In this document: positions 2,252 through 62,780 of the stretch, in pieces | Layout: every line of letters begins with the position of its first letter | How positions within the stretch are numbered: the stretch's first letter is position 1 | Assembly: GCA_018105865.1 (NCBI GenBank) | Contig: CM030868.1 | Span: 10,273,745 to 10,337,744 of the forward strand | Direction: 5' to 3' | DNA length: 64,000 bases | Source of the DNA: Metaphire vulgaris | Lineage: Eukaryota; Annelida; Clitellata; Crassiclitellata; Megascolecidae | Program-made: the position numbers and the translations under genes | Notes under the pieces: model-generated | The model's input: only the letters and a program-made list of their open reading frames with translations | Database searches by the model: none | What the model was told of the DNA's origin: nothing

Positions 2252-2451
2252 CTAATAAAATTATTTGTTATGCTTATTGGAAGGTTCATATGGCTGGCTC
2301 TTCTCATAATGTCAACGATTCTATTCGTCATCGTGATGGTAACCAAAGTTAACGTTTTGAATTCGTCTGAGAGCGACGTAAATATCGATGTCATCTACAA
2401 CGACTCAATACCGTTTCCAGCTGTCACCTTTTGCAATCAAAATCCATACAG
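2252..2451 (+). CDS. Exon 1 (visible): DEG/ENaC TM1 and post-TM1 motif
   Basis: Acceptor TTATCATAG, donor ACAG|GTTAGG; enters phase 0 and leaves phase 2. It encodes a hydrophobic helix (FIWLALLIMSTILFVIVMV) preceded by the family's R-x-IW start, then about 25 residues leading to IPFPAVTFCNQNPYR, the hallmark that follows TM1 in ASC channels. An ATG at 2270 is in frame, but the family's cytoplasmic HG gating motif would lie upstream, so an earlier exon outside the window is expected. A MITE begins 30 bp after the donor. Confidence 0.88.
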
Positions 2452-5400
2452 GTTAGGAAAACCTTATTTAGATTAGATTCACAGGCCCGCCGAGAGAAAT
2501 TCCGGGCCCCTGTGCAGAATGACCGGCGGGCCCCTAGCAAGTCTTAAAATTTGCTGACGACTTTTTTGGCTTGTAACTCTTTTCACGCTGTTCCTTCTGG
2601 TGTGTCCACAGGTCCCGCCCCCCCTCTTCCCCGCCGGACCACTCTGCACAACTTAACGTCGTAACCTTTCTTTAGTGTTCTTATTGGTATTATTGTTAAA
2701 TACATAATCATAATCGGCCCGGCCCCCTCCAGGCCTCCGGGCCCCTGTGCATTTGCCCCTGCCCCCTCTCTCGGCGGCCCTGCGTATTCATTATTCACTT
2801 TATGTCATGCATTGTCATGATGCCGTCGTGGCTAGGTGGCAGTTGTCCGCAACTTTGAGCATTAATTCTTCGCTCAGTCCACTGTTCTCTTTTTAAAACT
2901 GCCTCCATTAGTAGATTCCCTTTCATGTTAGTCCAGGGTTTCCCAACATTGTTTTTCGTGACTCGGTATTAGTATACCTTTCCCTTCGCGACACAGCAAC
3001 ATTTTTACCCATGGTCTACGTTCCGAAAGTCTGAACTCTTACGAGCAAAGAAAGGTCGTCACCGCAATTTGACACTTAACGATGTGTTAATTTCAGTCTT
3101 AAGAAGAAGAAAAAGGCCGTCGCCACATTTTTACACCTACAAATAATTTTTTTACAAAATGTTTAATTTGATTATTATGAAATTTAATTATTTTTATTAA
3201 TAGATTTTTGCGACCCGGCATTTTGCTATCCGAGGCTAGGTCCGGTACCGAGTCACGACCCACCGGTTGGGAAACACTGTGTTCTCTCATTTTAATGATG
3301 TTATCTGCCCAGCAGGTTCTGGGTCTACCTTGCAATCAATTAAAAATTATCAATAACAGTGTAATTATCTGAAACGATCTGCACTGCCTTCGGAAATTCC
3401 GTCCACCTAAAGCAACCTCTCAACAGAATTACGCTCTTCGACCTAATGTACACGACCTTGGAATTCCTCGCCGGATTAATAGTCTTTGACGGATAAAACT
3501 TTAGCAAAAGATTATTATTATATTCGTAAAGTAAATGCAAAAATAATTTTAATTTCCATTATCTTTTAAAAATTTTATTTGTACTTGATGCATAAGGTAT
3601 GTATTAATTAAGATAAGTATAGGATAAGTCCCAGCATCCATGCGGTCCTTCAACATCCTTTCTGCGTTTTCGCTGACTCTTCGACGGAACGTCTTCTTGC
3701 GGAAGACCGCCTTCTGAAGGGTTCACTGCCCGATTTCAACACGGCAGCGAACTCTTTTGTGCCATCTGAGCGGACTTTTCCTCAAGACAAACAATCTTCC
3801 GTTCCATGTCGATTTGTCAGCGTTGTTGACAGCGCCTTTGACTTTGGCCTTCGCCATGCTACGGCGCTATAGAAGTTGTCCAGAACCATAACCATAACCA
3901 TATATTGTTTTGACCTTGCGTTTTGTCATGGTTGATTTAAATAAAGAGATATTGCATTGTATTGTATTGTAATGCATTGCATTGTAATGTATTGTATTGT
4001 ATTGTAAGTGCCAACAGTGTTTTGTACAGGCCTGTTAGGAGGGGAGATTCCCTCCCTCCAAAAAAACCTCAAAATTCCTCCCAAAAATCCCAGCACTCAA
4101 ACAAATTTTGCATTGAACTGTGTCTTTTCCCCTCCAACCAAGCCGATCCCCCCCGAAAGCCTCAATTTCCTCCCAAAGGGCTGGAGTATGGATAAAACAC
4201 TGAGTGTCAATATCAGTTATCGCCATGAGACCGTGAATCCTTATATATCGCTCAGTAGGCTACTCTGACATGTACTATAGGCTAAGTATGAAACTAGGGC
4301 ACAAATACTTTAGAAACTTGCAGAAATGATTTTCCTTTATTCTCAATCCTCTTGTCTACACGGAGCGCAAAGAATACTCGCATAAAACGATTTTCAGCAA
4401 AAATCTTTCTCACGTGCTTACACAACTATCACAACCGCTTTTGAATATGATTGTCTTTTTGTTCTCGATATCTCTCATCCAGGGTTATTTCTAGGATTAT
4501 GAATCTGGGGGGTGTCGGTCTCAAATTGGGGGTGCTGGAGGGTGTTAGGGGTGCATCTCAGGCTCGGATTGAGAAAAAATTGAGGGTTGTTACTTGTTGG
4601 TCTCAAATTGGGGGGGGGTGTAAAAATATCCCTGCTCTCATCACGTGTCGTTTTACAATACATATTGTAGATTAAGTGCATTAAAGGAAAACGGACTTTA
4701 TGATCTATTTGTTAATTTCATCGAGAACACATATGTTGAAAACAACACCAGACGTAAGTTCATTGCACTTACTGTATGTTAAATGTGACATAGAAACGAT
4801 TTATCTCCGTGTATTTTTTCTGGCAGATCATGTGGCTAAACCCAGGATGCTTAATATCCTATAACTTGTATTAGGTGAATGAAATTAACAAAAAAATAAT
4901 AACAATAAATAATATTGGTTTATGGAGCTCGAATGTAGAGTCCAAAATTGTATACCTATTTATACATTTTCAGCAGCGAGTCTAAGATGCATAGGGTGGT
5001 GTTAGTAACCCCGTGAAGAAAGGTGCCATGATAAAGAGGTTAGCGTTGCTAGGTTCGATTGATTATCTAATTCTGGAAGTTGCAATTTTTCATATCTCAA
5101 TGTTCCCTGGAGTAAGTATGTACGTTGAATTCCATGCATTCTGGTAAATTTTATGGATTCTATATGCATGTTAGTAAGTAAGTAACACGAAATTTCTATA
5201 GCGCTACCCGAAAGCTTGGCGCAGAGCATCAGTTTATTCACTGTGTAAAATCCATAGTCCGCAATCCATGTCGGTGGTGGTAAAGGGTGCAAAATAAGTA
5301 AGCAATTAAAATCCCGTTACTTTCTATAGCGCTTTCAAAAGCTGCTCCAAAGTAGCTCCTTATTCCTAGGCGCCTAATCTTAGTATGAAGCAGCTATAAC

Positions 5401-8400
5401 CATAGGTGGGGTCATTCAGGCAGGGTCATTTAATCCAAAGGGCCAGTGGTTAAGGACGTTATAGCTATGGAGGAAATGATTTTTGAAGATAAATTACTTT
5501 ACTTTTGAGAGAACAATTTGGGAGTTGTTGCGAGAGGGGAAGGAAATTGTGACTCAGAATTTGTTATTTGACCATGGTATAGACAGCGAAGAGATGTTGT
5601 AATTGAGTTCCAAAGTTCTGGTGCAGCTTATGAAAAGCACTGTTGCAAATTTTGAGGAATGATTGATCCAGAGGACGAAGGAGTGACATGAGAGGAAGAG
5701 GAAGAGTAGATCGAGGATTTTGTGGGATTATCAGATTTCGTAGGTAGATTGGTTATGATGTATGAAGTGAGTTATTAATCATCGAAATTATTTTATATTT
5801 AACGCGTTCTGCTATATTCAGGCAGTGTAGAGTTGTGAGTAATGGTGCAATGTGAAGGAAAACATAAGTAATTTGGTAACTGCACGAGCTGAGGCATTTG
5901 AATCGATTCTAGTTCACATGTGGAAGCTTTTAGATGATTGTGATACAGTGAGTTGCAGTTGTCTGACTTAGAGAGTGAACTATTGAAGTGGCAATAGTGA
6001 AAGCAGTTTTAATATCAAGGTATGGACAAAGGCGGTGTAGATCTCGAATGTGAGCGTAACAGGTTTTTGATAGTTGGGATGTGTGAGCTTCGAATTTTAG
6101 GGAAGAGCCAAAAGCAAATCCAAGATTTTTATAGTTGGAACAAGAATGATTATTGTGTCTGGGGCTAAAATCACGGTGGGATTTTCAAATTTTCTAATTT
6201 GTTGTGGTAATCCAATTAAAAGACGTTCTGTTTGGAAGGATTGAGAGCAAGGAGATTAGCTGACATCCACAATGAGATTAGCGATTTTAACGAGATTAGC
6301 GATTAAAATGCCGATTCGAGTTCAGTAACTGATGTTGTAGATCCAGCTATATAGGGAGTCGCAGCAAAGTATTTTTATGGAGTATGATAGCACGATTTGC
6401 GATGGATAGAATGTAGGTTTATAGTAAGGATTTCACCATAAGATTTCTTGTAAAGAATAATTTTAATTTGTTTCCGGAAAGTTTGTGGAACGGTGACCAC
6501 TGATGACTGATTTATCGACTGAAGAGGACCAGAGTTATTGAACTCTCGGATATCTGACGAAAGATCGTTCATGAGACTAGGTGCAGTGTTTGATATCGAC
6601 CGACCTGAGAATTTTAGGGACGTGGCTGTAGGTCGAACGAGCGTCAGGCTGGCAGATGAGCGAGTAGACCGCTTCGTTTTAATTATAAAGAGATAACAAG
6701 GGCACACAGGTTTTGAGAACTGGATGGCGTTGTAATGTATCCGTTCTGGAACGTTGAGCCAGTGAAGCGATTTCAAGACCGGAGTGATGTGGTGAGATTT
6801 TGGCGTTCGCGCGACAGCTCTAGTCAAAGTATTTTGTATTGCTTGAAGGCGTGCTATTTTTTGGCGAACATGAAGGTAGAGAGAGTTGCAGTAGTCCATG
6901 CTTGAATGAACAATTGAGGTGACAATAGTGCAAGGTGTGCGGAAGTTTATAGAAATGGACGTAAGCGTCGTAAGTCCCGTATGTATGTGAAATAGGCGCT
7001 ATTGAGATTTGATGTGCGTGTGTTGAAAATGAGAGATCTGGATCAAATATCACACCAAGATTTCTTACTGGGGAACTAGTTTTGAATGAGTGGTCAACTG
7101 AGGGTCCCTCGTTGAATCTGATTATCGAGTTTGATAACTTGGCGATTTGCATGGGTAGCCCGATGAGAATGAACTTTGTCTTTGAAGAATTTAGGCAGAG
7201 TAACTTCGACGAAATCAGTGTTTTATCTAGACTTCAAGCTTTGGGGAGGTAGAGGAATTGACTTGGCTGGAGGGAAAGAGACATAGTTCAATGCAAACAT
7301 TTGTGTCAGTGATTGAGATACCTCGCCAGCTGCCCTAACTCAGCAGGATCGAGATGACTGATAAGATCGAAACCAAGATAAAGCTGTAGTTGGAATACCA
7401 AACCATGCCGATAGGCTTTTACCAGAACATCGTGATCAATAGTATCAAATGCAGCTGATATATCGAGCAGATGTAGACAGGTGATTTTCTGTTGACTGAT
7501 GGAGGTCATCAGCTAGTCGTATAAAGCAAACAGGAGAGTGTCCGTAGAGTGATGCTTAGTTAAACCAGATCTAATGGGGTTGAAAGTAAGTTTGATGTAA
7601 GGTATTCCATGAATCGACAGAGCACAAAACGTTCAGTAAGTTGAAATTGAAATGACTGAAAAGTTTGATAACTTGCGTCCAAAAGGTTCGTTCTACAGTT
7701 CATCCTAAATTAGAGTTAACTTTTTTAGGAGTGGTGTTGTGATCGAGTGCTTAACTAAATCTGAAAATATTCCAGAGGGAAGCGAGATATTGATAATTAA
7801 TTTTATTTTTTGTATATTTAATAACTTTTTGGGGGTACTTTAGAAGAGAGGTTTGGAATGGAATCAGAGACACGCTGTTTATTTGAGATGGAATGTATGA
7901 AACGTGAAGTTTCTTCTTCAGTTGCTAATTCAAGATCTGCCCTGAGTTCTCAGCAATTTAATCAATCAATCAAGGATTTATTTCCAAAACAAAAAATCAT
8001 TACATATTAATTCAAGTTGCTCAGTTACAAAGAAAGGCGTACAATTTTTAGTTCTAATTTCATTGCACAGTCTAATTAAGAAAATAACAAGCTACAGTAC
8101 TAAGGTTCCCGCATGACAGTTGCACGCAAGTAATAAAACAGCCTCAATTTGCTCGTGTCTCAATTTCTAAAAGTATTATTCTTCGGGGTTTGAAATCTTC
8201 GTCGTTGATATAAAAGGGAATCTAATGATTGTTCTGATGTTATTGATAGCGACCTGCGACGAATACTTTCTTCGTCCGGGCATCTGTAGCATTCCTGAAA
8301 GGTTTTCCTCTGCAAATGTTTGGTTCGGTGAAGTGACGAGGTTCGTCTGCATGCAGCTATGCTCCGAAGTGTACGACGAAGAATGCAGTTCTTTCGTTTT

Positions 8401-11400
8401 CAACAGAACTGATAGCAGTTGCGTTCTCAGTTCATACACGGGCGACTGGATTCCATCGAATGCACCAAACTGCACCAGCACCAACGAATACCACCACTTC
8501 ATGGAATTCTATCGTAGACAACGGTGTCCAAGTAAGACAAGAAATTCTACTACCTTAAGTTGCTTAAATCGTCAAAAGAAAATCCTGCATAAACGCTATT
8601 ACGATTTTTGTGTCTGGTTGGACTAGGCCGTCGACACGATGGATCCTGGATTTACGTGGATTGGCGCTGGCATATGTCGCAAGAGAAGTTTCCAGTTGCA
8701 GTCAGCTGTCTGTCTTTGCGTAGCCGACGTTTTTCCTCTAGTAGGTTGATGCAAAGTTTGAAATGCCATCCGTGCATTGAGCGTGCCAGCGTGTCCTATC
8801 CTGTGCGAGCAGCTCGAGTTGCTTCGAAGGAATTGAGCAGACTTTCAAATTGTATTTCAGTGTGTCTTTGAATCGCTTCCTGGGTCTTCCGATCGATCGA
8901 GCTCCATCTTCCATCTGGCAGTAGAAAGCCATCTTTGGAGTTCTCATGTTGTCCATGCGAATAACATGACCAGTCCACCTGAATTTGGCAGCCAGTTGGA
9001 AGGCCTCAATCCCCGTGGTGCAGCAAGTCTGTAGAACTGCAGTGTTTGGACGTCCTGGTCAAATTCTGATTGCTGATTTAGAACGGAAGTAGTGCTGAGC
9101 CCATCGTTCTAGTATTTTTGGTCGATCTGTGATCAGCGTCCCGTTAATGTCGCGTATAGGAATGGCGCTATTTATGTGATGGCAATATATGGCTCTAAGT
9201 CCTTCATAGAAGGCTCTGAGTTCGTGTTTGTCATAGCACCATCAAACGCAAAAGGCTTGACACGTCTAAGCTGAAAGAAGCTAGCTGCAGCTAGTTGCTC
9301 CAGGACTTACTGGCTACTAGACTGCAGGAAGCAAAAGATGAACAGACATCTTCCAACGAAAAATGGTCTGTTTTAAAGAGCAAAATTCAACAAACTGCTA
9401 CCGAGATGCTGGGATTTGTTACCAGAAAACATGAGGACTGGTTTGATGACCAGGACAACGAAGCCAGAATCCTACTCGACGCCACGCATTGCACTCATCT
9501 TGCGTGGATGCACGAGAAAACCAACCTCACCTTGAGGAGAGCATACAATGATGCAAAACAGACAGCACATAGCAAACTTCGTGAGATGAAGAACAACTGG
9601 TAGCAGACTAAGGCAATTGTACTTCAATCTGCTGCTGACAAACACGATCTCAGAGATTGTTGTATGGAACGCTTGTTTAAATCAGCTGGTCCTGAAGCTC
9701 CATTTGCGCTGGTTATAATACAACTATGAACAAACCCAGTAGAAAATGTTATTTAAAAAAATTAACTTAATTTAATTTAACTTTTATTGCAACGAAGTGA
9801 TCCAGCTATATGTTTATTCCCAATGCATTGCAGGTTAGTATATGAACGAATAGTTAGCCTACATTTTTATGTAAATATTTTAATTAATGTATATTTCAAG
9901 TAACGAATAATCAGTGTCATTTCATTAATTTGATTTAAAATTCATGTGATCTTTGACAGAATATTCGGGTATTTCGTGCACATTTGAAGACGATTATGCG
10001 TGTATTTTGACTCAAACGACGGAATCGAACGAAACTTGGACCTTAACAGCAGCACGAGATCTTCTATCAATACCCTTTGATAACACTCTCAATTTGGGTA
10101 TTTGACTTGTATTATTAGCAATTTTCAAGCGAATATTGTACTAGTGCATGTACTAAGCTGGCCGTAATATCAGTGGACAGGTAGGTCTCAAATATTTGTC
10201 TCAAGCATTTACTCATATTCAATCCTGGATAGAGCTTGTCATCTCGGTTGATTTTGGAGTCTCAATTAATTATCTTCGGAAGCACAACTGCACTGGATCC
10301 AGAAATAATCTTTGACTTTATTCCAACTTTCGTCAACCATGCAAATATCACCTGATAACCAGCATACAACCAGAATCGTGACCTCTTTTCCCCCTTAAAA
10401 ATATTTTAAAACAAGACAAAATGCTATCCTTTCCCCATGGCTTATCCACCATAGTGGATCTCGTCATCTGGTTGTCCGGCTTGACATTATGAATGCAAAC
10501 TTGGTTCTTATGTGATTGGGATTTAGTACGCCATCGATTTATGTTTCCATAGACTACGGCATGGCATCATAGAAATTGATGTTTGGGCCACACAAATTAA
10601 GACTGTTGTAGCCAATGTCGCCGAGAAGAAAAAAAAATAGAAATTACGAAATCTTTGAAGGAAAACAAGAAACAAGCCTTTGAAAAACGAAGAATTAGAG
10701 TGTCTGAGATATAAGAGCGCTGTCTCTATCAAGTACATATGCTAGTTTTCGTTCGATAAATTCTTTGTACAACATGCCTTAGTGCTTTGTTACCATTAGG
10801 TAATTCCTTTCTGTATGCTTATTTGCTAATGAGTTATAACAGCGCTCTTTAGGATTAGTTGAAAATCAGTTTGGTATTTGATTTAAAAGCAACTGGTCAT
10901 TTTCAATTGCTGATGACGACCGATCGTCGTCTCGGCTTCTATTCACGTCTTCAGTCTCCGTACATCGACACAACGGATAAGTGCATTGAGCTTTATTTCT
11001 GGATGGACTCGTCTGATGATATACCAATCCTCTCAGCCATCGCCGTCTCAGAAGAAAAGGATGAGGTTACAGTAGTCAAGACGTTCGGAAAGCAAACGGC
11101 AGGATGGAATCGAATGTTCGCTGAGTTACCAGTTGGATTCAACCAAATTGTTATCGAAGGAAGAAGAGGAAGATTGAGTTTCACTGGAATCGCAGTCGAC
11201 GATATATTCGTTCGAAAATGTAGCGTATTACGTAAGTTGAGAGTGTTAAGGCCTTTGAATTGTGAAATTTTAAATATTGTTAAACTATTCAGCTGATAAA
11301 TGATGGTAAAATCAGAATAGGCCTATTAAGTAGGCACAACGATGACTGTACTAGGTGTTTTCTGTAGCAATAATACGAAAAGCTATTTGATAACACTAAA

Positions 11401-12801: not shown

Positions 12802-12848
<47 letters not shown>

Positions 12849-13933: not shown

Positions 13934-13981
<48 letters not shown>

Positions 13982-16900
13982 CATTTAATGTTGAACACAC
14001 TAGACTGGTGCTAAATTAAAGGCATGGTCCGATTTCAGATCCTGTCTCTTATTAGCAACACTCTGAAATGGCATTCCCCTGTTTACGTTCAGTCTCTAAT
14101 AAATCACTCTGTTTCTATTCCTGGAAGATCGCATTTGCACTCGGTAGACAGTTTTGATACATTTTTAGCACGAGCAGCAGTTGCTGGTCTACAAAACGTA
14201 GCAATCACTGGTGCTGGCGATGATTTAATGTTGTCGTCAAGACGAACTTCACATGTGAGAGCTACTGCTCTAACACACCGCAGGACCTTTCTCATTTCGT
14301 GTCCTATGTCGAGCGAACGTCGCCTCTGAACACTGCTACAAAATGGTGACATAGAAAATGTCCAGTATATTACTATAGTAGTTATTGACAAAGATATTGT
14401 ATTTGTCTTACTCTTGGCTCTGTTGAATGCATTCACATCACTTATTATATATTTCCTGCATCGATATTTTGATATGTAGTTTTTAATTCAGCGTGGCTTA
14501 TTGTTGACTGTATGTATTTGTTTAGAGCTTGAACGAGAATGTAGAGTCAATCCGATGGGTACAGGCTATGTTGGATCGGAGGCAAAATCTTCTTCTGGTG
14601 ACACTTGCATCGCCTGGTCTGGAGTCATCTTTGATTATGATCCATTGACAATGAAGATCAACAGTAATGACGTTAAGAACCATTGTCGCAATATGATTGG
14701 AGCAAATACGTTTCTCCAACCGTCTTGTTTCGTTTATAAAACGGATTTCTTTAAGTTCGTAACGCAGCAACTTTCTCCATGCAACATACGATACTGTGGT
14801 AAATAGCTGATATTATTACAAAATACCTCGAGTTTTATAAAAATAATAATAAACTACGAAAGACAGGTCAATTAAAGTAGAAATCAAAATTAAAATTGTA
14901 GCGGAATCATGATTCAGCCAAAACATTGTGGTTAGATACATATGTCTTTTTGCTGAATTATCATTAATATTATATGACTCTTCACGCACATTGACTCATT
15001 CACAAAGTGGAAAATGACAAGTGCATAGTAAGTCAAGGGTGAACAACTTGCCAAAATTCGCCAGGCAGTGGTTTGAATCAGATTCGAACCCGCTCCACTA
15101 AGGTTGCGTGACTAGAATCTTAAAGCTACCGTACACCCTACAACTGAATTATAGAGCTATGACCCAGCAATAAGATCAGTGGCGTACCTAAGCGTGGCAA
15201 AAGAAAAGAACGGTAATTATAATTCAAGATGTTGTGCGCAAAAAAAGCAAGATAAATCGCTTTGTTTAAGCTTGTAACTGTTATTGGCGATTCATTTTGC
15301 ATATATATTAGACCTATGGATTCTTTACTATTGAATTGACATTGTCAGTAATAACTAAAAGCAAAACAAAACTAGTTGTAGCCTTCACCTTATTAAATAA
15401 TGATTTCATTTAAGAATTTGTATCACATTTACTGATGAACAAATTGAAGCAACGAAGGGTTGGGATAGGGGATCGGCATCTTCCATGGACTGGCGGCACC
15501 TGGGATTTGGAGGGCGTCACCTATGACACCGTTCCCGTCGCCAATTACCCTAGGTCGCCACTGGAGAAGATATCGTTGCTTTGCTGGAATATCCTTTTCA
15601 GTGTGTTGATATTTCCATTTTGAATTTTGCCGATTCATTCGTCTCTAATAGAATAACTGTTACATAAAATTCTTGAGGTATTACTGCATATTAAATTTTA
15701 TTTTTAACTTTTAATATCTACAGAAGATAGGCATAACTTAACTGCTGGGATATTAGTTTATTTGTGATATTCGTTTTCAGAGTGTCGCATTGACAGTTAC
15801 TTTCAATGTCATGACGGATTTTGTATTCCGCGACAGTTGATCTGCAACGGAGTCAATGAGTGCGTCGACAGAAGCGACGAGGAGCCCGACAGTTGCCGTA
15901 AGTTTTCTATTAAAAATTATCATGAAATGAAATCTATTGCTGCTATCAAATTAATTATTTGGTATGACCATATTTTGAAAGAATACCATTTTACTTCGTA
16001 ACGACGTAAAGCATGTTGACACCAAGGGACTGCATTTAATATGTTAACTGTTTGGCATTGTATGCCGCACGCAAAAGGTTTTTGTAATTGCAAACTCAAA
16101 GGGAAAAGTTGCAGCACACTCAACAGAGAGAAGAGAATAAAAGGCTACATGAGTGAAAAGTGGGTTTTAATCCAGAGAAGATCCTATTAAGTAGCAGTGA
16201 TGCTGACAAAGACTGACCTCCAAGCACGAGGATGAGGAGAAGAACCGACACCCAACCGACGAAGGATATGGAAGAGGACCGACCTCAGGGACGAGGATAA
16301 CAAACGAGGACAGACCTTCCAAGGACAAGGATGAGGACGAGGAGACTAGAGTTGTGCGGGTACAGCAGAGGTCGATATATATATATATTTTAAAATGCAA
16401 TACGTTTATTGCCCGAAGAGCAGTGTAGTACAAATAAGATGCAATTGAAGAAGGAGATCGAATATGGCATAAGAAATAATATTAAGAATGAATATGCTTA
16501 ACTATGGAACGCACAATGCGAAATTGGGCCAATGTCTGCAAAAACGTCCCACCATTAATCTTTAGCGTTATTATTTGATTATGTTGCCTGTTTTTAGCGA
16601 CAAAGATAGGAATCACGTGTGACTTCGAGGACGATTATCTGTGTGGTTATAAGACGAACCTTCCAGGATTCCTTCCTTTCAACCGAATTCAAATCGAAGA
16701 TACCAACGACATCGATTTCCGAGGCATCACGACAGACGCCAGCGGATCTGTTGACGGTCCCTATATTAATATTAGCAATGGTTAAATATCGTAGTAAATC
16801 TACATTATATTCATGAGAAACGTAGAAATTTGAAAATGGCATCATACAAAAATGGTGCATCAGTTTAGCATGCGGTTTGCAATGGTTCTCCAGCAAAACC

Positions 16901-19900
16901 TCCGACTTATAAAAGGTAATCCTTGTAAAAGAATGCGGGTCTGCCCCTCTATTGTTGCAGCTGATGTCGTTGTCGCAAGGAAAGTAATCTTAAGAACTAT
17001 TTCTCCCATTTCGAGTTTTATTTGTATCGTATTAGATAACATTAATACGAATTTAGATTTAACTTGCCATTCGCTTTTTATCCCAAAGAGGTATGCTGAT
17101 TAAATCGGGTTTTATAGTTAATATCACGACTCAAGATGGACAATTGAACATTATTAAAATAAAAGCAGAAATTAGTCCACCGATAGATAGGCCAGGAATA
17201 GGGAATAGGAGGCGATAGATCCTGCTTAGCTGCGTAAGTCAAAGGTCACGAATTCAGACTTAAAAGATGGGAAGGCCTTTGGGTAACCCATCAGCGGAGC
17301 TGTCTGTACAATTTGTCTATGCTAAACGCAGATCTATTCTAGTTCAGAATTTCTAACATATAAATTGAATATGGCACTATCTCTATTCTCACATAAAACT
17401 GTTAAAGAAATCTCCATCTTCGATAAGTGCCAATTCTATCAATTTCGGAAAACTAATGCACTAGAGTGTCGTTGTCGCCCGAATCTACATCACTAATTGC
17501 AAGGAAATGCCTAAAATGTTGGGTTTAAAATTGTTTCAGATACAATTGCAAATTCGCACCTAAAGCCTATGCCACTGCACAGACACACTGCAGTTCGCAC
17601 CATTTAAGCACGATGGGCTGACAGGTTGATGTTCCAGAAGCTAAGGAAGAGAAATAGAACTAAACTTCTAAAGGAAAACTTCCTTTTATGATATTTCGCT
17701 CGACAGAATTTGTTTATGGTCAATAATGCAAATTTTCTCCTGAAGAGGCCATTGAACTAATTTTTAATACCTGAAGGTAAACTTGTACTTTTGACCGGTT
17801 CACATGGAAGTTCACGGCAATGTAGTCAACATTAAAAAAACCGTAACAGATTTACAAAGAGAATGCGAGACGAGCACAAAATAAAAACATGAATTAACCC
17901 CTTAACTGGGGATCCCAGATATATCTGTCCATTTTACATTGAGTTACAGTTAAATACACGATTAAGGGGTTAAGCAAATGTTATCCTCGACCGTCTTTAA
18001 GGAGTCTTTCAGCATATTTTGGCATATGAAAAAGGTAATCGTATAACTTGATAATATGACAAATGCATTACGAATATTGGTATTATTGCTCGTTGTACAT
18101 TAGGTCACTACATGACGGTCACTTCAGATCCCAGCAACAATTTCATCAAAATGCAGCTCATGTCTCAACTGGTCAATTTGACTCAACCGAAGACACTACA
18201 GTTCTCCTACATCGTTTCCACAACACTAGAATCTGATGGAGGTCCACTTCTTAGTGTATTGCAATATCCATTGCTTAACTTTCCAGTGGAGATTTATCGA
18301 ATTGCCAACAATGGACTGCAGAGCGTCTGGAAAATCGCTAGACTATGTCTTCCTCGAGGAGTGTATTACTTGGTATTCGAGGCAACGATGGGAAATGAAA
18401 TTGGTAGCCTTATAGCAATTGATAACATCCAACTCTTGGAAGACATTTGCGACGATTTCAAAAGTTCTGTGAAAAGCATTAATGGTAATTTACTGACCAT
18501 TTGACCATTTGACCAGTTAGAAACGTCGTTTAATGATTTGCCGACGCAGCTAAACAGCGCATATTACCGAGTAGATGTTTTCTCTTCAAAATTGACATGT
18601 AGGCTTGGATATTTTCTTATATCATTATTTGCAACACAGAGCATATGAACAACACCAATTTCGATATATTCTTTTCTAATATACTCAATGCAGAAAGAGA
18701 AGACCGTTGAGTTGCAGGACCAACTTGGGACAAATGGAGGTCCCGGAAACATGGGTGGATTGGCAGTATAGTAATATATGGCCTACATCAGTGGCTTCAA
18801 AATATTGAAGTGAAAATTCTGTGTAATGTAATGCAATGTAATAAACTATTTATCTAGCGCCTCCTCGATTCATAATCACTGAAAAGCGCCCCCTCGGCGA
18901 CTAACACTGTGCACCTGCAAGGTCCGCGTCGGTAGAACTGCTGACAGCGCCGACATGTGGACCTATGCGGATAGGCAGATGACAATCATAAAAACCCACT
19001 TGGACGGTGGAAAGGAATTCGCTGGCGTTACGAAATCCGGCGAGAGAGCGATCCTGCTCAATAAAATGTTTTTCTAGTACCGTCTCGACAGAGAAGAACA
19101 AAAGAAGGTGGTATTGAGGGTGCGCGCGGTATAGTAAAAGTAAAGGTTTTCACCCGTAGGCTCACGCCCGTAGGGTCCGGTGCTGATCCCCATATTTAGT
19201 AGCCAGCAGCCCATAGGTGGCTAAGCCATACATCGGCGGACGGTGGCCAGTCTCTTCCGCCGAACCTATGGTTACTATCGCAATGTTGCCATTGCTACTC
19301 ATTTTTGATGTTACTACCGCCCTCTAGCGATTAAGGCTGAGTCGACCTTAGGGGCTCCTACGGGATTGAACCCGTGTCGTCGGCGTGCCTGCCCAGTGAT
19401 ATTACCACTCATCTATCTTCCCGCCCGGTATACATACATTTATACGGCAACCTTTGCGTACGTCGCAATGTGAAAACACGGAATAAGACGCAGCGCGCTA
19501 GAACAATTTTTATACATGCGATCGCAATTTCGCACAAAACTGGTGTAGCATACTATATTAACTCCCATGTAATAATAATTCCCCCGTCATTATTATATTG
19601 TATACATAATAATAAGTTAATAACTCCCTTCATTATAATATATAATAATAACACCCCTAGCTTTATAGAAGCCAGCTGCGGCAGTGATGCAAATTGTAAA
19701 TTTTTAAGGATTTGAATTTGTTTCAATTATTTTATTCGGGATATTCGAAACTGTGGGCGAAAAGTTTTGATCTTTCCGTAATTTTAAAACTTATTTCGTT
19801 CTGGTTCATGTCGGTATTTGCACAAGCAGTCAATTCTTGCTCGAATTTTTAAAAACAAATTGCAATATTAAAAAATTGAGAAACAATCAGTAGTCTCATT

Positions 19901-22900: not shown

Positions 22901-23074
22901 CTGTTTTGAGAAGCTCCTATAAAGACACACTTATTTACCATCTCTTATAAGTGACTCCTTTGTAAAGCGCTCTTGACTTTAGCTCCAGTTATGCCACTGC
23001 GCTATATAAATTGTCGTAGATAATATTAATAATAATAATATTATTATAAATATAATAATGACGGTGTGATTAAT

Positions 23075-23134
<60 letters not shown>

Positions 23135-31228: not shown

Positions 31229-31275
<47 letters not shown>

Positions 31276-34200: not shown

Positions 34201-36058
34201 TAAAAGTTTTCAATATATAACCGGAGCTTAGAAACATTTCATTCGCTTGTTTAAGTTCCCACGATAACATGCTGTCACAAAACAACTCAGTACATGAAAC
34301 CACAATAACAATAACAGATTGGTAAAGATTGGTAAAGTATTAGAAAAAAGTATTAGAAAACAAAAAAGACATAATGACAAGATGGAAAGACTATTTTGAA
34401 GAATTATACAACACAGCAGGCAATAACAATGAAGACACCAACATAAGGAAGGAGAACAGAGAAGAGAATGATGAAGAAGAAATAGCAAACTTTACAGAAG
34501 AAGAAATAAAAGAAGCCATAAAAAGATTGAAAGTTGGAAAATCTCCAGGAACAGATATGATAACAACAGAAATGCTACAAGCGGGAGAGGAAATTACAGT
34601 GAATATATTCCACAACCTATGCAATAAAATATTCGAAGAAGAAAAATCACCAGAGGAATGGGGATAAGCCATAATAGTACCAATACATAAAAAAAGGGGA
34701 TAAAACAAACTGCAATAATTATAGAGGAATAAGCTTACTCAGTATACCAGGGGAAATATATACAAATGTGCTACAACAAAGACTCAAACACTGCTCAGAA
34801 GAAATATTGACAGAGGAACAAGCAGGCTTCAGAATGGGAAGAAGTACAATTGATCAAATACATACGATCAGAAGGATAGTAGAAAAATATTGCGAAACAA
34901 ATAAGAAAATATACCACAATTTCATTGACTTCAAACAAGCATTTGACAGCATACAGCATGAAGATCTATGGCAAGCACTGAAGCACTATGGTATTCCAGA
35001 GAAGCTAATGAATCTCATAAAAAACTTATACAGTAAAACAATGAGCAGAGTGAAAATTAATGGGGAACTAACAGAATGGTTTGAGATAACAATTGGAACG
35101 AGACAAGGATGTGGCTTATCTCCACTGCTATTTAATATAATACTAGATGTGGTAATGCAAAAAGCAATACAAAACACAAAAGAAGAAGATGCTGGAGTGA
35201 AAGTATATGGACAAACAATAAATAATTTAAGGTTTGTAGATGACATAGAAGTGATAACAACAAAAGCAGATCACCTACAAATATTAACCAATGAAATAAG
35301 CAAGGCCGGAGAAGAAGTGGGGCTAAAAATAAATATACAGAAAACTAAAGCAATGGTCACGGGGAACAAGAAGGGAAAAGTTAATCTAAAACTAAAGGAG
35401 GAAATAATAGAACAAGTACCAAAATTCGTATACCTAGGATCAGTACTGACAGAAGATGGCCTAAGTGAAGAAGACATAATAAGGAGAATTGGCCTAGCAA
35501 GTGCAGCATTTGGAAAACTTCAGAAGATATGGAAAGACAAACAAATATCACTGAAAACAAAACTAAAGCTATATAATACACTGATCAAACCAATACTATT
35601 ATATGGATCAGAATGCTGGACCATAAAGAAGAAAGACGAAAGAAGATTAATGACTGCAGAAATGAACTGGTTAAAAGGAATAGCAGGAGTCAGCAGAAGA
35701 CAAAGAATAAGAAATGAAACGATCAGAGAAAAGACAGAGCAAAAAGAAACGATACTCGAATCAATACAGAAACGAAGACTGAAATGGTTTGGTCATGTTG
35801 AAAGAATGAAGGAAGAAAGACTACCAAAGAAAGCACTATACAACTACGTTGAAGGGAAAAGGAGAAAAGGAAGACCAAGAAAAACATGGATAGAAAACTT
35901 AAAAGAGTATGCAGAAGAAATGCAAATGAACTTCATCCAAATGACCAGAGCAGCAAGAGACAGACAGAAGTGGAAGCAACTCATTCAGACCCATCGTCCA
36001 ACCCAATAGGGAAAGACGGAAGGAAAGAAAGAAGAAGACATGAAACCACTTAAAATCA

Positions 36059-36112
<54 letters not shown>

Positions 36113-38703: not shown

Positions 38704-38782
<79 letters not shown>

Positions 38783-47588: not shown

Positions 47589-47634
<46 letters not shown>

Positions 47635-50600
47635 TATATATATATCCCCACAAATCCGAAAACCTCAAAATCTTTCTAATGGTTAGTAGCCGTTTTGTTC
47701 ACATGTGGGACATTAACATATTATGTTTTGATTTGAAATAGTAATGACTAGTTAGGATTTATACCACCCTCCCAAATAAAATTCCTGGCTACGCCGCTGA
47801 GTTCAGCCACATGTGAAAAGTCGTTTGCTTCCGTTTCTTGACGTTCAAGCGGTGTCACTCGACAAAGAGAAACTTCACAATTAAGCCTAATGCTGTCAGT
47901 CTTGGCCGACCACGGAGACACCAGTGCTCCGCTAGCAGAGAATTTGGCCGATTGATCATGTAAACAGAGTCCAGTAATTAAAGTGTCTTGTGCATATCTG
48001 CTTCCAAGAGGTCTAGATTTAAGGATGGAATGAACGAAATCCGCTATTTATATATAATAAGAAGGATTGCTACCTTAATTAGGGATATTAAATCCGCTTC
48101 CAATTTAGGTAAAGAAGGTGAGGCCGAAAACACGATCAAGAATCGATTTCTCGGCGTTCCTGGAAGAGAGCCACATCCTATTCTTATAACACAGAACGCC
48201 GATATCTGAACCATGTTCTCTCTCTCTCTCCTCTCTCTCCCTCTCACACCCTCATCAGGATCATGGTCCAGTTATAGACAATGTTATTGAAATTTGTGCC
48301 ACATAAATCAGTCAGTTGCTGCCTATTACTGAATTTATAATTTTTATATGGGATATAAGGATTTCCCCCTCATATTTGGTTAGCGATTCAGCGGTCAGAA
48401 GCAGGCTAAAGGGAGTAATAATGCAAGGTCATGTTCGTTGCAGACTTAATAACGGTGGAGCGGGAAGATGTTAATAGCCTAATGCAGTATAAACAAACTG
48501 ACCGTCGAGTCGTCGACCAAAGTTACATATTAACATACTAGCGGTTTACCCCACAAAAACGACGGGAAAGAATGACTGTTTTACTACCAGATTTTTTGCA
48601 AATGTCATAGGATTTTGCGCAATGGATTGTCCTTAACGCGCGGCCTTTACTTCAACCGAGTTAACGTCCATTCACAGCTGAGGGCGCTTGGTACAAAAGC
48701 AAAAAAGTGTTGATAAAGAAGTTAACTGTTTTCCAAAAACTTTGACAAAATAACACGAATTCTGCGAAAAGAGATAATACGATTTTATATGGAATATTAT
48801 TTAAATCATTTATGGGGTTCTAAGGAGAAATGTGGTAAAGTTGTACGTGAACTCTGAAGACAGGTGGACCACGGACAGGTAAGTTATCAACTTGAGAACC
48901 AATTGATGCAAAGGCAACTGTTGAGTTCTAGCATCGGATGTTCTACTTGAATTGGTGATAATGAGGGTGTTTTGGATTGCTAAGCAGCTGTTGAATATAA
49001 CCTGAAAACGGGCGATTATTAATCTTCAATAAGACTGTGCCTTTGTGGCAGCAATATTTAAATGTTCCACCAAATGACCTTTCACTTTGAAAGTTTAGTG
49101 ATTCGCGATGTTGACATTTGAAAGTCATTGGACCGCATGAATGTTCTGAGACTTCATGGTCGACGTAAGTATAATGACTTGGCAATATCGAACGACGTGC
49201 AGTGCTTGATTCTCTTCTTTTCTGTGCTGCTTTTCCACGCCGAACTAAAGCCTGCTCCTCGCGTTCTCACTTGCTTGTCGGAAAGCTCGTGAACGCTGGA
49301 CTTTTGTGTATTTTGAGAACCCCGAACAGCTAGAGTTTCCGGACTTTTGTTTTTACGTGAATTTTGCTTTCTCTCACGCGCCATTCGCTGTTTTTGTTCT
49401 TCTGGAGTCTCGGAATTCATTCGCACTTCATTCTTTGTCAGTTAAATAGAGAGATTATCCTGACTTTGTTATAGAATAGTTTACATATACGAATATTGCG
49501 ATTGAAGAATTACGCGTACGAATCAGTTGGTTCAGTGTTAGCCAAAGAATAGCGCCGGAGGAACAACGTTTCAATAATGTACATATAGATGTACATATGG
49601 TGACCGGAAGATTCGGTACCGGAAGATTCGGGACGGAAGATTCGGGACGGAAGATTCGGTACCGGAAAATTCGGTACCGGTCACGGAAGATTCGGTACCG
49701 TTGGGTGTGCGGGGGCCGCTGGGGCTCATGCCACCTTATTGCCCCCCCCCGTGGGGTGGGCGGATAAGACCGTTCTAACGCGGGGGAGGGAAATAACGGC
49801 GAACTATGATAGTAATAGCACGGCGGGTGGGGCGGTCCGGGAGCCGTTGAATCGGGTCAATTTTCCCTCCGGAAACGGCCTAGCTTAAACCCTGCCTGTA
49901 AAAAGTACTACCGTAGTATATCTATCTATTTTGGGCCTTTTCTAGAAGGTCACATCAAACAGCTCAAGTTCCCTGACATATTGCGAGTTTAAAATCTGTT
50001 TACATCTATTAAGTCGGTGGGGGAGCAAAAGCGCGCCTGAACGCTGGGTGTCCGCTAATGACGCGCGACAGTTAAAGCGGCCAAATACCAGCAGCAGGCG
50101 AGGCGTCATCTTATGTGTATGTCGAACCGGTACCGAATTATCCGGTACCGAATCTTCCGGGAACCGTACATATAGATGTGATAGATGTGCATTTGCATTG
50201 TATATATTAAAAATCACGCCACCTAGCCAAGCTTCGCCCACCAAAATAGCGTGACGTAGTAATTACGTACGTAGAAACCACGCCACTGTGACGCTGTACA
50301 CGTAGCAATTATGTACGTTAAAATCACGCCACTTCCTCAAGCTCCGCCCACCAAGATACCGTGAGTCCGTGATGCTGTAATATGCTATAGTAATGATTAC
50401 ACATCACTGTCCTGGTTAAATATAAAAATGTCCATCAATTTCTGTTTCAGAAGTCTTAATTGCGGCCTACAATCAGAAAGGAAAGCTGAACTTGACAGCT
50501 GTAAACTCGATGACTACAGTGTACTTTGATGACTCCTGCAGAGTTCAGCGTCCAACTGACGATGAATCTGAAAATTGATATTACAGAATGCAAAGAAGAA

Positions 50601-53600
50601 TATATTGAAGTAGGAAAATTAAACAATTGCATGATCTTTGTGACATTTTGTGTCTTAACTCATAGACTATTGCAACTATCCAATTGTTTGATTTCAAATA
50701 TAACTTCTGCAGACATCGCAAATCGCGCGATCAAATGGTCCAAAATGAGATCACAGTACTAGTTGAAAATGTCTTTCTTACAAAACTTTGCTTTAAAATA
50801 AATCTGACCGTCTTCTCTTTAACTCACCATTTAATCACAAAGCGCGATTGGCCCGAAATTTCAAAAAACACTATAGCAGTATTTGCATGTCTGTCATCTT
50901 AGATAATAATTTTCTTTTTCCATTATGTCAGTCGCGCTACACGGCAGATGTTGGACAACGTCGTTGCCCGGCACCAACCCATCCCCGCCCCAATAATACC
51001 GGTCCCAACCCCCGTTCCGGAATAAGATTGTTACAAAGCAACGTGAAAATATCGAAAACTTATTTAAACAAATTTGTAAAATTGTAAGATATCGACTATA
51101 TCATTTTCTTCCATTATTTGTTTTCAAATAAACTAGAAATTTTAGAAGGTTAAAGACCCAGACCTTCAAACACAGGTGATCAACTATCGCGTGATTAACT
51201 GTCGCGTGATTAACTGTCGCGTGATTAACTGTCGCGTGATTAACTGTCGCGTGATTAAATGTCCATACACCTTGGATTTGTTTATCTCTCTTATGGAAAT
51301 TCTGGAGGGAGGAAATAAAGATGTCAAATCATGTCATCTGGTATACGCTTTGTTACAGGCTGACGTATGTGCATTATGAAATAAGATAGAGATATCGATA
51401 AAATTAAAATTGGCTTTATATTGACTTGGGGTAAGAAAACGGTGAGAACTAAAAATCAGTAGGTAGTGGTTCTTCTGTGATTCAGATGTCAGTTTACGAG
51501 TCTGACGTCAGCTACGGTTTGACAGTGCAAACGGTGTTACTTGAGTCGTTTTGGGACGGAATACAAGAAAACTACGATTCCAATCAGTCACTACAAATGG
51601 TTATATCGCCGTCAGCTATTCGCTGCATTGACGAAATAGAGTACGAAGTAAACGCAACCAGAACAGAAGGTTAGCAAATAGAAGTACATTTATGGTTTAA
51701 CTGACTTTTTATGAATGCAACGAATTTTATGGATTGTTATGTCAGTACAATCAGTTCCCAAATGGATTTTAACTATATTTGGTTTTGTTCGGTTAAGATA
51801 TACTAAGATTTGATGCGCCAGCGGCTGACGCTTCTACACATTTTATAATGGCGCTATATAATTGATTGGTTTATATGCCCTCATGAAAAAATATCGATAT
51901 ATAAATATATATATTAACATCCTTTATTTTGGAGTTATTTGTCTTCTGTTTAGGATATTCACTCCAATTAATTCAGGATCTAAATAGCAATGTAGTACAA
52001 TCGGACAATTTTACCGCTCAGTGGATTTCTGATATGTTTTTGGTTCCTCGTGTCACTCATCTGTGCCTGTCGTTCCACTTGGAAACATCGACAAACGTTC
52101 AAATCGTGCACTACGAAGAAACAGAGAAGGTAATTGCGACGTCGAAGGTCGTCTTCTTGACCGGAACCAACACCACGATAGCGGAATCAGCGCAAGGAAG
52201 ATTCGAATTACCGTTAAATAACGACACATACAGAACACAGATCATCATTCAAGTCAGCGAAAATACGACAATTCACGACGTCAGAATCGATTCTGGAGTC
52301 TGTCAGCGAACAGGTTAATAGAATTGACACATGACAAAACTCAAAACAGACGAGGAGCGTTCTTTATTTGAGTAAGCTGTGTCTAAAGTTGCAAAAGACA
52401 ACATCATGGCTCATTTGCGAGTTCTTGATAGCATGTAATTTAGAACTATCAGTTGATCCTATTGCGTAGATTCTGGATTTCAACTTTTGTGCTGTTTGAA
52501 GCAAATTCTTCCGCTTAAAATATTCACTTCGTTCTTCTCAATTTTGCTAAAAGCCTTTCTGATTTTTATTCAAATATGAACTCACTACTATCTGTTTTCT
52601 TCTCAGTGTAAGTATTCAAATTGAATTGGTTGGCATAGAAGAGCACTTAAATAACTTAAACGAATTGCTAGTTTTCTATGGAAATTACAATATTTCAGAG
52701 TGTTTCACTTCCTCGTCAATTATTGCAGTTAGCAGTAATGCTATTAAATGGTGATCAATGTGTTATGCTTTGTTGTTCAGTGACGGCAAAGGATTGGAAC
52801 GCTCAGTGTGACTTCAGCATGATGTCTGACTGTGGATTCGTGGATGCTACAGAGGATATGTATAGATGGGTCATGACTTATGCTCGATCATCGCCTCTCT
52901 GCACCTCACCACAAGGTTTGTTTCACACCATATTTGATCTTCTCCTGCAATGTCTCAATATTTTGGTAACCTCCTTTCAATTATACAGAATGATGAACAG
53001 GAAAAGATGGATACTGGTTACTGCTTTGGAACAATACTGCCTTCAGACTTCTTACAGAGCTATCAATAAAAATACACCAATGATCTGGTTGGCGTTTTAT
53101 ACCTATTTCATCAAGCAGGTTCATTACGTTCGTACGAAAGTAGAGTGAATCTGACATTAAAAAGAACTGGATGCAAGCTGTGTATCTTTGTGGTGTTTTG
53201 AAATTTTTACTTCTTTATCAAGAAGATTCAATTCTTTCAGTCGGGAGGCCAAACGTTCTGCCACCGGATTTAAGAAGATTAGGTCTCTTAACACTAGAAG
53301 GACCGGAATTTTTTATACCTCGAAGGCCCACGTGCGTCAATTGACGCAACAGCTTAAAACTGGTTGATTCTATTAGAAAATCCAACATGCATAAGAAAGG
53401 AATTAATATTAGGAAATTAAAGCATTTAATCTACTGATTTAAACATGAATTTTAGTAATATTCTATGCTGGTAATTCTCTATAAATAAATATTCTATGCT
53501 GTTGTTTCAGCCATTTTGTAGCTTGTGTTACTCACGTTTTTATCAATTTTTATTAATTGCATAGGCTAGTCCCTGAATTGAAGCCACGAAGAGAGGTAAA

Positions 53601-56600: not shown

Positions 56601-59600
56601 CTGACTGTATGTGTTCATTGATCTCTTCTAACCTTCACTAATTTGGCTTATTGTATTCTTGTACTCCAGGAACATAATTCAGCATACAGCTGAGGAAGAG
56701 AACTTGATCACATAAGCGACTTACTGAATTAGCTCCATAGCCAAATCAGTTAAAATTCGGTGCTTATCTGCAATTGCACTTTGTATTTGTGGAATTTGCA
56801 CTTTTTCTCTGATCTAGCCAAGCTCTATCTTCTGACTAATTTCGTCAAAACAAGACCAACCATTTATTCAAGTTGAGGCCTTATTCGAATAGTCTGAATT
56901 CAATAATGCACTGGCTTCGTCCAGAAACGATTTGAAACTTTTTCAGGTCAAAACAATCTTAGTGGGATCATTCATTACGAAGAAGTGATACATACTGTAA
57001 AGTATAACTGCATTCAATAACATTCAACTGCCAATCCCTTCATAATTTGCTATCAATCTTTAAGTTAAAATTCATCATCTTGTTCTCTGTATATGCTAGA
57101 TGATGACGGCAGAGTTCGCGAGTGTCTTTCAGACGACAACGGAAGGAATTACATTGGTCGAACGAATAGAACGCTCTCTGGAAGAGAATGTCAACCATGG
57201 AATTCACAGTTATCTGCCCAAATATTTAATGACGTCGCCTATTTTCCCGATTCGTTGTATAATTCAAATGCAACATTGTCGGACGTTAGTAACTACTGTC
57301 GTAATCCGTCGATAGATGGAGACTATGCTTTACGTCCGTGGTGCTATAGTCTGAGAAACACCTTCGTGAAAGAATATTGTGACATTCCATTCTGTCAAGG
57401 TAATCTGACTTACGTAAATTTAGGTCAAGTTTATACCTCGCAATGAAAGCTATTTTTGTTTTGCGAGAGATTAATGCGATTCCGAGAAAAATTTGGTAAG
57501 CGACAATTCGAGCCTAAAATGCTCCTAAGAATTTGTGAAAATATTAGCGTCAAACATACAAAGATTTTGAATAGAAATCAAAAAAGGCTGATCTGCCTAA
57601 GTAAGCAAAGCAAGTTACTGAATTGACTTTAATGAAAACTTTAAAAAATCCAATCATACATTGTATTTATTTAGAACTGCAGCGTTTGTTAATATTGCAT
57701 CACTAGTTTGAAAACTTTATTGAGTTCTGTTCCTTCAAGCCTGTTACTAAAACCTTCAGAAGACAATGGAAATAAATGTTAGTTTTCAGTCGTCGCATTT
57801 ATAACGGTCATTGTCACACACTAGTGGCCTGATTTTGATTGGAGCACATTCTATATAAGATTTGTCACGAAAACTGTGATAATATGCGCAGTTTTTGAGC
57901 TCATAAAGTTCACTATCCATAGAATTCACTTTCCCTCAAGGGGACCTAGAATTTTCCAGTGCCACTGGTTTGCCAACAAGATCTGGTAAATGCGACTCAC
58001 TCTTGATTTACGTCAATCAATTGTTTCCGTAGTTGAGTGTTTCCCTGTTCGTTTAACTGTCACAGATTTCTACATGAAAGTTGTCTTTTCCAAACGGCTA
58101 TACAACGGCTGTTCTATCGTCTCCAGTATTTCCAAGCACTAACGAAACAGATCATTGCCTTCAGTTTCAATATAGACTGAGTGATTCGAAGGTAACACTC
58201 CGAGTTGATATCATCGATCCTGTTCAATCATCATTACTTACCCTGGGCACCCTGTCTTATCATAATCAGACGAATGCCTCTGACTGGAACAATGCATCAA
58301 TTGCGATCAATAATAAGTTCCGGCAAGTGAAGTTTGTGGCAGACAAAATAGGATACACAAGAGAGTTTTCTTTCGTCGCAGTTCGAAAAGTCGTAATACA
58401 CAATTCGTCATGTTCAAAGCAAGGTAAAATGTATTCTAAAAATGAGCTTTTTTCTTTATATAGACGTTTTATTATTTTCTTCTATGCTAAATAAATAATA
58501 AAATGAATTACTCATATCGTGTGATTTCTAAAGTCGATTACATTGGCATATTCAATAATTAATTGATTCGCTCATTCAGTCATTCATTTCCTGGGTTTTT
58601 AACGATAACTGGAGTTTTTAAAATGCCTTTTATAGCTGATAAAAATTCTTCGAAAGACGGCGTGACTTATGACGGAATGCAGCTGCCCGACCTTTCATTT
58701 AAAGATCTGGTATTAGAAGATATGAATCGTGAGTTGAATTAAATTGCAATTCTTTTGATCTTGCTATAAATCAATTCAACTGTAGCCAATGTTATGTATT
58801 TATCCCGACGCAATGACACTGATCATGACAATCTGTAACAAGGCATTGTGAACATTATATCTAAGTTTAGACCTAATAGAAGTAAACATGTTTGAAATAG
58901 TCTGATGTGAGTGCGACATATGAATTGTGGATAATATAGCCAATTGACCTCCTTATATTCACTTTCTATTCTGACAGGTTGACAATTCACCTAAGCATTT
59001 TAACGAGGAGTTAATAATCGACGAAGAAGTAACAATGTTACCTTAGTGACTGAATGTACGAATGTAAAAAAATCAAAAATCAAGCAAAACGTTAAGGGAC
59101 CCGAGCTAATTGATTATAAATCAAACGATTAGTAATGGGCCTAATAAAATGCCTGACCGATTGCTATTCTAAATTAGATTTGAGTGTTCAATTTATTGTA
59201 AGATAGAATAAATACAACCAAAGTAATTAATTGTAATTAGAATTAGTAATTGATGGCTGCCACCAAACTGAGACGGATGATTTTTCTGGCACTTGATGAT
59301 GGAAGATGGACTCGTGAACTTGGCAGTGAAGGCATGGAGGGTAAAATATCAAGAGGAAAAAAGATTTAAAAACACAGACAGACTAAGAGAGATGGTCTCG
59401 CAATAGACAGCAACATCGAACTCGTGAGGAATACCAGAGATCGTCAAAAGTGGAAATCAATGGCCGCCGACGTAACAATGCATGGCACCTGAGAAGAAGA
59501 AAGCAATTAATTGTAATTAGATCAGATTGAGTGATTGCAAGATTGCTCGATAATTTGGTTGGTTTTTGGATGGGTTGGTAGACTGGGTTGTTGATTTATT

Positions 59601-59926
59601 GATTGATTGACTGATTGGAATTATAAACTACTACTGGTATTGTTCTTATTAAGAGCTGACGATGGCAGACATTCAGTTCTTGCTTCGCCACAGAAAGCAA
59701 AGTTTCATATACAGGTGATCGTTCATGGCGATTTTAACATGGATAGGATACTAAATTGTTTTTTATTTGATGATGACTTTGATAACTGCAAAATCGGTGT
59801 CATTCTCTTCGACCTGCTGTTGTTCTACTTCGAAACGTTGTGTAATTGTCACTGTGATTAAAGCCAACATGTTATACTGCAAACCGACAGTTCTCGTAGT
59901 AGAACTTTGAGGACTCTCGCGATCGA

Positions 59927-59981
<55 letters not shown>

Positions 59982-62780: not shown

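Follow-up and report, generated by a model that had tools for sequence, protein, structure and literature searches.

A DEG/ENaC channel gene of the earthworm Metaphire vulgaris with a predicted PAN, MAM, kringle and LDLa insertion in its finger

Channel exons and the finger region

The window, i.e. the whole stretch of 64,000 nt from Metaphire vulgaris that was analysed, holds on its + strand the larger part of a gene of the DEG/ENaC family (acid-sensing/epithelial sodium-channel family), whose other exons lie in the flanking DNA. Exons were found by splice-aware scans of the + strand, with gaps filled by phase-directed scans; all exons described here lie on that strand, and their entering and leaving intron phases are given in brackets. 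The 5′-most one, E0, encodes the HG motif (VHGL) in the flanking DNA at window coordinates -1038 to -916, its 5′ end being uncertain, and neither a start codon nor an exon upstream of E0 was found in the fetched flanks. Exon E1 (2284..2451; 2,2) encodes TM1, beta1 and FPAVTFCNQNPY, and matches Pfam ASC as scored with an earlier start at 2252. That start was rejected because 2252 is closely followed by an in-frame stop in two further tandem copies of the gene (copies 2 and 3, described below); the AG acceptor ahead of 2284 is conserved in all three copies.

The first module exon of the gene, which encodes a PAN domain, starts in phase 1, and as E1 ends in phase 2, the two cannot splice directly. 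A phase-directed scan identified exon E2 (4671..4753; 2,1), which fits this 2-to-1 gap, has a GTAAGT donor and encodes finger helix alpha1 with (R)LSALKENGLYDLFVNFIENTYVENNTR. E2 is 59% identical in copy 2 and 67% in copy 3, with the acceptor and the GTAAGT donor conserved, and it aligns to the ASIC1/2 stretch that follows CN.N..R.

On the far side of the modules, exon b (58636..58728; 1,1) encodes the remaining finger and is 83% identical in copy 2, where the acceptor is shifted by 3 nt with the phase unchanged. The finger ends in exon b2 (59654..59714; 1,2), found by a phase-directed scan of copies 1 and 2 and near-identical in copy 2. Then come exon c with CYTFN (60946..61064; 2,1), recognised by Pfam ASC and by ASIC in the PDB, exon d (61393..61475; 1,0), matched by Pfam ASC and mapped in copy 2, and exon e with GFDVSPGF (62682..62780; 0,0), matched by Pfam ASC and spliced from a GC donor at 62780/62781 that is kept in copy 2. 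The flanking DNA continues the gene with an exon for PPWGICGEED...CHCKSGYMP (64234-64387), a long exon (68988-70285) and another one (72287-72546) that carry a second insertion, a downstream exon (73940-74031) and the TM2 exon with GGSILSFFEF and the stop (from 74748). The scans confirmed the layout proposed in an earlier note on this DNA, with TM1 and FPAVTFCNQNPY on the left, the modules between, and CYTFN and the palm segments (60946-62780) on the right, all on the + strand. Among candidates tried, an acceptor at 58580 was dropped, being absent from copy 2, and a donor at 58732 and a candidate exon at 29462-29610 were first accepted and then dropped.

E1 (with its start at 2252) joined to 58636-62780 scores 6.4e-34 against Pfam ASC. 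In the joined halves, profile positions 1-129 lie before the modules and 128-376 after them, and the two halves match ASIC1 (PDB) on either side of a gap that opens after FPAVTFCN. When the modules are removed, the Pfam ASC match reaches 1.1e-77, covering profile positions 1-424 and a second stretch, and the module-free protein matches ASIC2 at 8.4e-47. The gene shares with the ASIC/ENaC family (PF00858) the HG motif, TM1, FPAVTFCN, CYTFN, GFxVxPGF, PPWGxC, C-x-C, the G-x-S filter (here GGS) and TM2, the choice of motifs that define the DEG/ENaC family being in part general knowledge. It differs in that the ASIC1 chain has short stretches where the M. vulgaris gene has ~1,568 residues (finger) and ~494 residues (thumb).

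Read across 4671-4753, 58636-58728 and 59654-59714, the predicted finger is whole, and the modules are inserted, not substituted. The earlier suggestion that the finger had been replaced did not hold, whereas its other form, an expanded finger, did: by alignment, an insert of 1,568 residues (~1,670 in the earlier estimate) falls in the alpha1-alpha2 loop. In alignments to ASIC1 and ASIC2, which are weak within the finger, the junction of the insert maps just after the ASIC1/2 alpha1 stretch, from which we infer both an insertion site in the predicted alpha1-alpha2 loop and its exact position relative to the helices. Finger helices other than alpha1 are named here according to what we take to be the usual scheme. 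The alpha1 motif is described in PMC10507113, and the ENaC GRIP domain is positioned between finger alpha1 and alpha2 in PMC6197857. The likeness to GRIP is that of an insertion between alpha1 and alpha2, beside finger and thumb, a placement that for the earthworm gene comes from alignment only. The GRIP domain is, however, a small beta-strand insertion with inhibitory tracts, whereas the earthworm gene has whole module exons.

The second insertion, of ~494 residues, is encoded by 68988-70285 minus its first 24 residues and by 72287-72546. It falls, in the alignment, between the ASIC1 residues YGKELSMVKI and ENILVLDIFF, a segment that we take to belong to the thumb. The long exon (68988-70285) is 73% identical in copy 2 and has no PDB relative at E 0.1. 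The second insertion has no Pfam match above the cut-off and is, by eye, rich in helix-forming sequence.

The genome as a whole (728,303,522 bases on 246 contigs, searched for ASC) gave at least 98 six-frame ASC matches, with 93 of 1,519 candidates scored. Among the matches listed, 33 cover a near-full profile in one stop-free open frame of 514-758 residues, and many TM2-exon matches cluster on contigs C1 and C23. These ASC matches and TM2 clusters represent a large DEG/ENaC expansion in this genome.

The module cassette and its tandem copies

The module cassette consists of 20 exons (4,703 bases, 1,568 residues) within one phase-1 ASC intron. The residue count is a lower bound and leaves out a 0-to-1 exon expected in the gap from 28195 to 37328. 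Unless indicated, its exons enter and leave in phase 1 (1,1). The cassette starts with a PAN_1 exon at 8250..8531 (Pfam 1.0e-5; 95-96% identical in copies 2 and 3), followed by a first MAM domain encoded by 9960..10097 and 10890..11231 (Pfam MAM 1.2e-16 when joined; second exon 99% identical over 111 residues in copies 2 and 3). A degenerate kringle 1 at 14526..14798 (Pfam Kringle 5.5e-6, below the cut-off; 33% identical to kringle 2) and an LDL-receptor class A module at 15781..15897 (Pfam 6.1e-10) precede a second MAM domain, encoded by 16598..16780 and 18104..18484 (Pfam MAM 2.1e-12 when joined; second exon 87% identical in copies 2 and 3). The next three exons are a first exon that is MAM-like by eye at 24136..24252 (78% over 37 residues in copies 2 and 3; no Pfam MAM match), an exon that is CUB-like by eye only at 24691..24875 (1,0; 62-64% in copies 2 and 3; no Pfam CUB match), and an exon at 28118..28195 (0,0), whose donor possibly lies at 28216 and which is conserved in copy 2.

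Beyond the gap that follows, four exons are MAM-like by eye: a divergent second exon at 37328..37693 (85% over 119 residues in copy 2; no Pfam match), a first exon at 40221..40355 (71% over 35 residues in copy 2; no Pfam match), a second exon at 40648..41001 (57% over 113 residues in copy 2, with a 6-nt length difference that keeps the frame) and a divergent second exon at 45159..45566 (56% in copy 2; no significant Pfam match). A short exon at 50451..50518 (1,0), conserved in copy 2 with its frame, and an exon at 51486..51669 whose fold was not recognised (0,1; 97% in copy 2) are followed by two more exons that are MAM-like by eye, a second exon at 51954..52313 (88% in copy 2) and a first exon at 52781..52915 (76% over 42 residues in copy 2). 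Kringle 2 at 57100..57399 (Pfam Kringle 2.0e-17) and a MAM second exon at 58127..58423 (Pfam MAM 8.1e-7, second half of the profile; 93% in copy 2) close the cassette. A candidate exon at 52607-52750 was dropped, as it has no counterpart in copy 2 and leaves a 30-bp gap to the next exon.

Searched singly or together with their partner exon, 8 of the 20 module exons, or ~680 of the 1,568 residues, score above the Pfam cut-off, as two complete MAM domains, one half MAM, kringle 2, LDLa and PAN_1. No match above the cut-off was obtained for 11 others (24136-28195, 37328-41001, 45159-45566 and 50451-52915), including 52781-52915 joined to 51954-52313, which reaches 0.059 for MAM. Several of these 11 exons resemble divergent MAM by eye, some MAM halves in the cassette lack a partner, and copy 2 retains all 11 exons, splice sites and frame included. 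Of the domains named in the earlier note, ASC, PAN, MAM, Kringle and LDLa are thus found above the Pfam cut-off; CUB is not, 24691-24875 plus 28118-28195 matching no Pfam family up to E 0.1. The same profile searches, run up to E 0.01 on the two joined parts and up to 0.1 on further pieces, returned neither an EGF family nor a protease domain.

Among solved chains, kringle 2 is nearest to the kringles of plasminogen and HGF, two proteins that also carry PAN. The likeness ends there, the earthworm modules sitting in a channel gene in which the Pfam searches found no protease domain. Kringle 2 contains a D-G-D motif, absent from kringle 1, that presumably lies near the site of the acidic pair of lysine-binding kringles.

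The exons read in two open blocks. Part A, which runs through 13 exons from the HG exon to 28195, is open over 823 residues, and part B, with 20 exons from 37328 to the TM2 exon, over 1,675 residues up to a single stop behind TM2. As the remaining two frames of part B contain 110 and 119 stops, chance does not explain these open frames. The phase 0-to-1 exon sought between 28195 and 37328 was not found, and the frame is therefore given as two blocks. From the sequence we predict one gene with a single transcript, its exon series being phase-compatible but for this one junction. The compatible intron phases claimed earlier hold for the series with two qualifications, the 28195/37328 gap and the step from E1 (out 2) to PAN (in 1), where E2 had been missed. 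By eye, reverse-transcriptase-like open frames of retroelements are seen in the introns (19945-21147, 30204-31283, 33041-34009 and 34678-36006) and, on the minus strand, upstream (202-2083).

Over 223,701 bp of the contig, the module and ASC exons recur in the same order (tblastn), in copy 2 from 82,145 and in copy 3 from 162,616, the latter being followed to its counterpart of 24875, in the CUB-like exon, close to where the fetched DNA ends. With a boundary mapping that tolerated in-frame shifts of up to 12 nt, of which a single one was used (3 nt, at 58636), all 20 part-B exons and 12 of the 13 part-A exons were mapped in copy 2, 16598-16780 failing at its 3′ boundary alone, and 11 of the 13 part-A exons were mapped in copy 3, with an open frame. 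Every mapped acceptor is AG and every donor GT, except for the GC at 62780 that copies 1 and 2 share; the last exon has no donor. Six of the mapped exons are longer or shorter in copy 2 than in copy 1, always by a multiple of 3, and the frames stay open; E0, whose length differs by 10, was left out of this comparison, its 5′ end being uncertain.

The dN/dS ratio between copies 1 and 2 is 0.48 over 221 ASC codons and 0.54 over 1,490 module codons, for an exon list lacking E0, 28118, 50451, 59654 and the downstream exons; values near 0.5 indicate only moderate constraint. In the MAM-like exons 40221-40355 and 40648-41001, dN slightly exceeds dS between these copies, which suggests that this pair is relaxed or diversifying. 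At low divergence, dN about equals dS in kringle 1 (copy 2) and PAN (copy 3). Note that dS falls to 0.02-0.03, against an average of ~0.18, in 8250-8531 (copies 2 and 3) and 51486-51669 (copy 2), which makes gene conversion between the tandem copies likely at these two exons.

Relatives and alternative readings

We searched for relatives of the two parts of the protein separately. With the module part, 4 of 4,035 candidates matched, at 23-31% identity over 8-15% of the query: three MALRD proteins (MAM and LDL-receptor class A) and a Biomphalaria MAM/LDLa/trypsin protein; ASC is absent from the precomputed Pfam lists of all four. With the ASC part, none of 349 candidates of ~935-2,975 aa matched at E 0.01 or better, and 2 of 203 candidates of ~300-950 aa did match. 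One of these two, from a JGI contig, is a channel-like protein of 351 residues whose finger is short; it is 34% identical. These protein searches are word-based and need shared 5-residue words, so that absence is not proof; within this scope, no annotated protein with the composite architecture was found. A phage-collection search gave no match either, and the titles and abstract openings of open-licence papers yielded no DEG/ENaC channel with PAN, MAM or kringle modules.

Other ASC loci of the genome were compared in the same way. At two multi-exon ASC genes on C23 (59 kb, six loci), tblastn detected no module exon below E 0.03, the best scores being 0.037 for LDLa and 0.057 for PAN, both on the opposite strand. 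The MAM profile reached E 1.5 at best on loci L017-L019, and no module was seen by eye in the readable part of the long ORFs with ASC matches at loci L009-L011.

The view that this architecture is unknown thus stands as far as the protein and literature searches reach, but it has partial precedents, in EGAS channels for the addition of modules and in GRIP for the place of insertion. According to PMC10424705, the EGAS channels of C. elegans are EGF plus ASC, and in oocytes their currents did not exceed the control. Like the earthworm gene, they join a DEG/ENaC channel to extracellular modules; the modules there are EGF, of which none was found here.

Taken as a whole, the locus is probably best explained as one DEG/ENaC gene with a module insertion in a complete finger. 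In this reading, an ordinary channel gene would have acquired phase-1 module exons by shuffling into one of its phase-1 introns. The strongest rival, because the join without modules is itself a normal channel, is that the modules belong to a separate gene for a secreted or membrane protein, nested on the same strand in the 54-kb intron of a plain channel gene. Joining 4671-4753 to 58636-58728 indeed yields a normal and complete channel, and copy 1 offers possible ends for such a gene: an in-frame ATG (MIVLMLLIATC) that precedes the PAN acceptor by 25 nt, two weak candidates for a first exon, each with a hydrophobic start, between 2452 and 8240, and, 3′ of 58423, a read-through stop and an AATAAA, the latter also present in copy 2. 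However, copies 2 and 3 have GTG in place of this ATG, and a start at the next ATG in frame would leave seven residues; the read-through tail ends differently in copies 1 and 2, whereas the donor is conserved. The space for gene ends is also small, with 212 bp (copy 1) or 235 bp (copy 2) from the end of the cassette to ASC exon b, and an intron between E2 and PAN that measures 700 bp in copy 2 and only 211 bp in copy 3. These 211 bp between the finger and PAN exons are strong evidence against a nested separate gene, which we regard as very improbable, the first and last module exons moreover sharing the phase of the phase-1 ASC intron.

An optional cassette would account for the normal channel differently, the main product being a plain channel and the arm being alternatively spliced, optional or tissue-specific. 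As the cassette is in phase 1 at both ends, the gene would yield a plain channel if the cassette were skipped; the exons joined without the modules read open as far as the stop behind TM2 and encode at least 931 residues, the second insertion included. This would, however, require the simultaneous skipping of at least 20 exons, which is generally uncommon, and we consider it unlikely. That the locus is an assembly artefact or a decayed gene is scarcely credible: introns that by eye are rich in retroelements, some unpaired MAM halves and a dN/dS of ~0.5 could be read in this sense, but diverged copies keep exon order, open frames and splice sites, with length changes in multiples of 3, and the 223,701-bp joined stretch contains no N.

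A possible arm-operated channel

DEG/ENaC channels are gated via finger and thumb, by protons, peptides, proteases or force, and in ENaC these two domains frame the cleft through which the channel is inhibited and activated. For the single gene with an inserted cassette that we favour, three subunits may assemble as in ASIC/ENaC, by analogy with these channels. A PAN/MAM/kringle/LDLa arm would then project from each finger where ENaC has GRIP, next to the cleft between finger and thumb that controls gating, and docking of a ligand, of matrix or of a protease on the arm, a pull on it, or its cleavage, would shift the finger relative to the thumb and so open or close the Na+ pore.

According to PMC8223032, plasmin cuts mammalian DEG/ENaC channels in the finger and potentiates MEC-4(d) with MEC-6, not UNC-8(d). 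M. vulgaris has 20 lumbrokinase genes, according to the title of a supplement (PMC7666815). Together with the likeness of kringle 2 to those of plasminogen and HGF, these plasmin effects and lumbrokinase genes make protease docking or cutting on the arm a reasonable first hypothesis; an adhesion-driven pull on the arm may be the other candidate input. We tentatively put forward, as a possibility, that these are arm-operated Na+ channels, i.e. trimers with three ~1,600-residue PAN/kringle/MAM arms at the GRIP site and a helical-thumb brace, gated by the worm's own fibrinolytic-type proteases or by matrix tension.

Overall, what is new is a predicted PAN/MAM/kringle/LDLa insertion in the known DEG/ENaC family, with a strong structural case and a function that we infer. 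An adhesion/protease-type ectodomain is apparently placed in the finger, at the site of protease gating in ENaC, with another long piece near the thumb, and the exon shuffling is still legible in the intron phases. This suggests that the DEG/ENaC ectodomain can accommodate inserts several times as large as itself, and it raises the question of whether a shuffled extracellular receptor arm can drive a DEG/ENaC pore.
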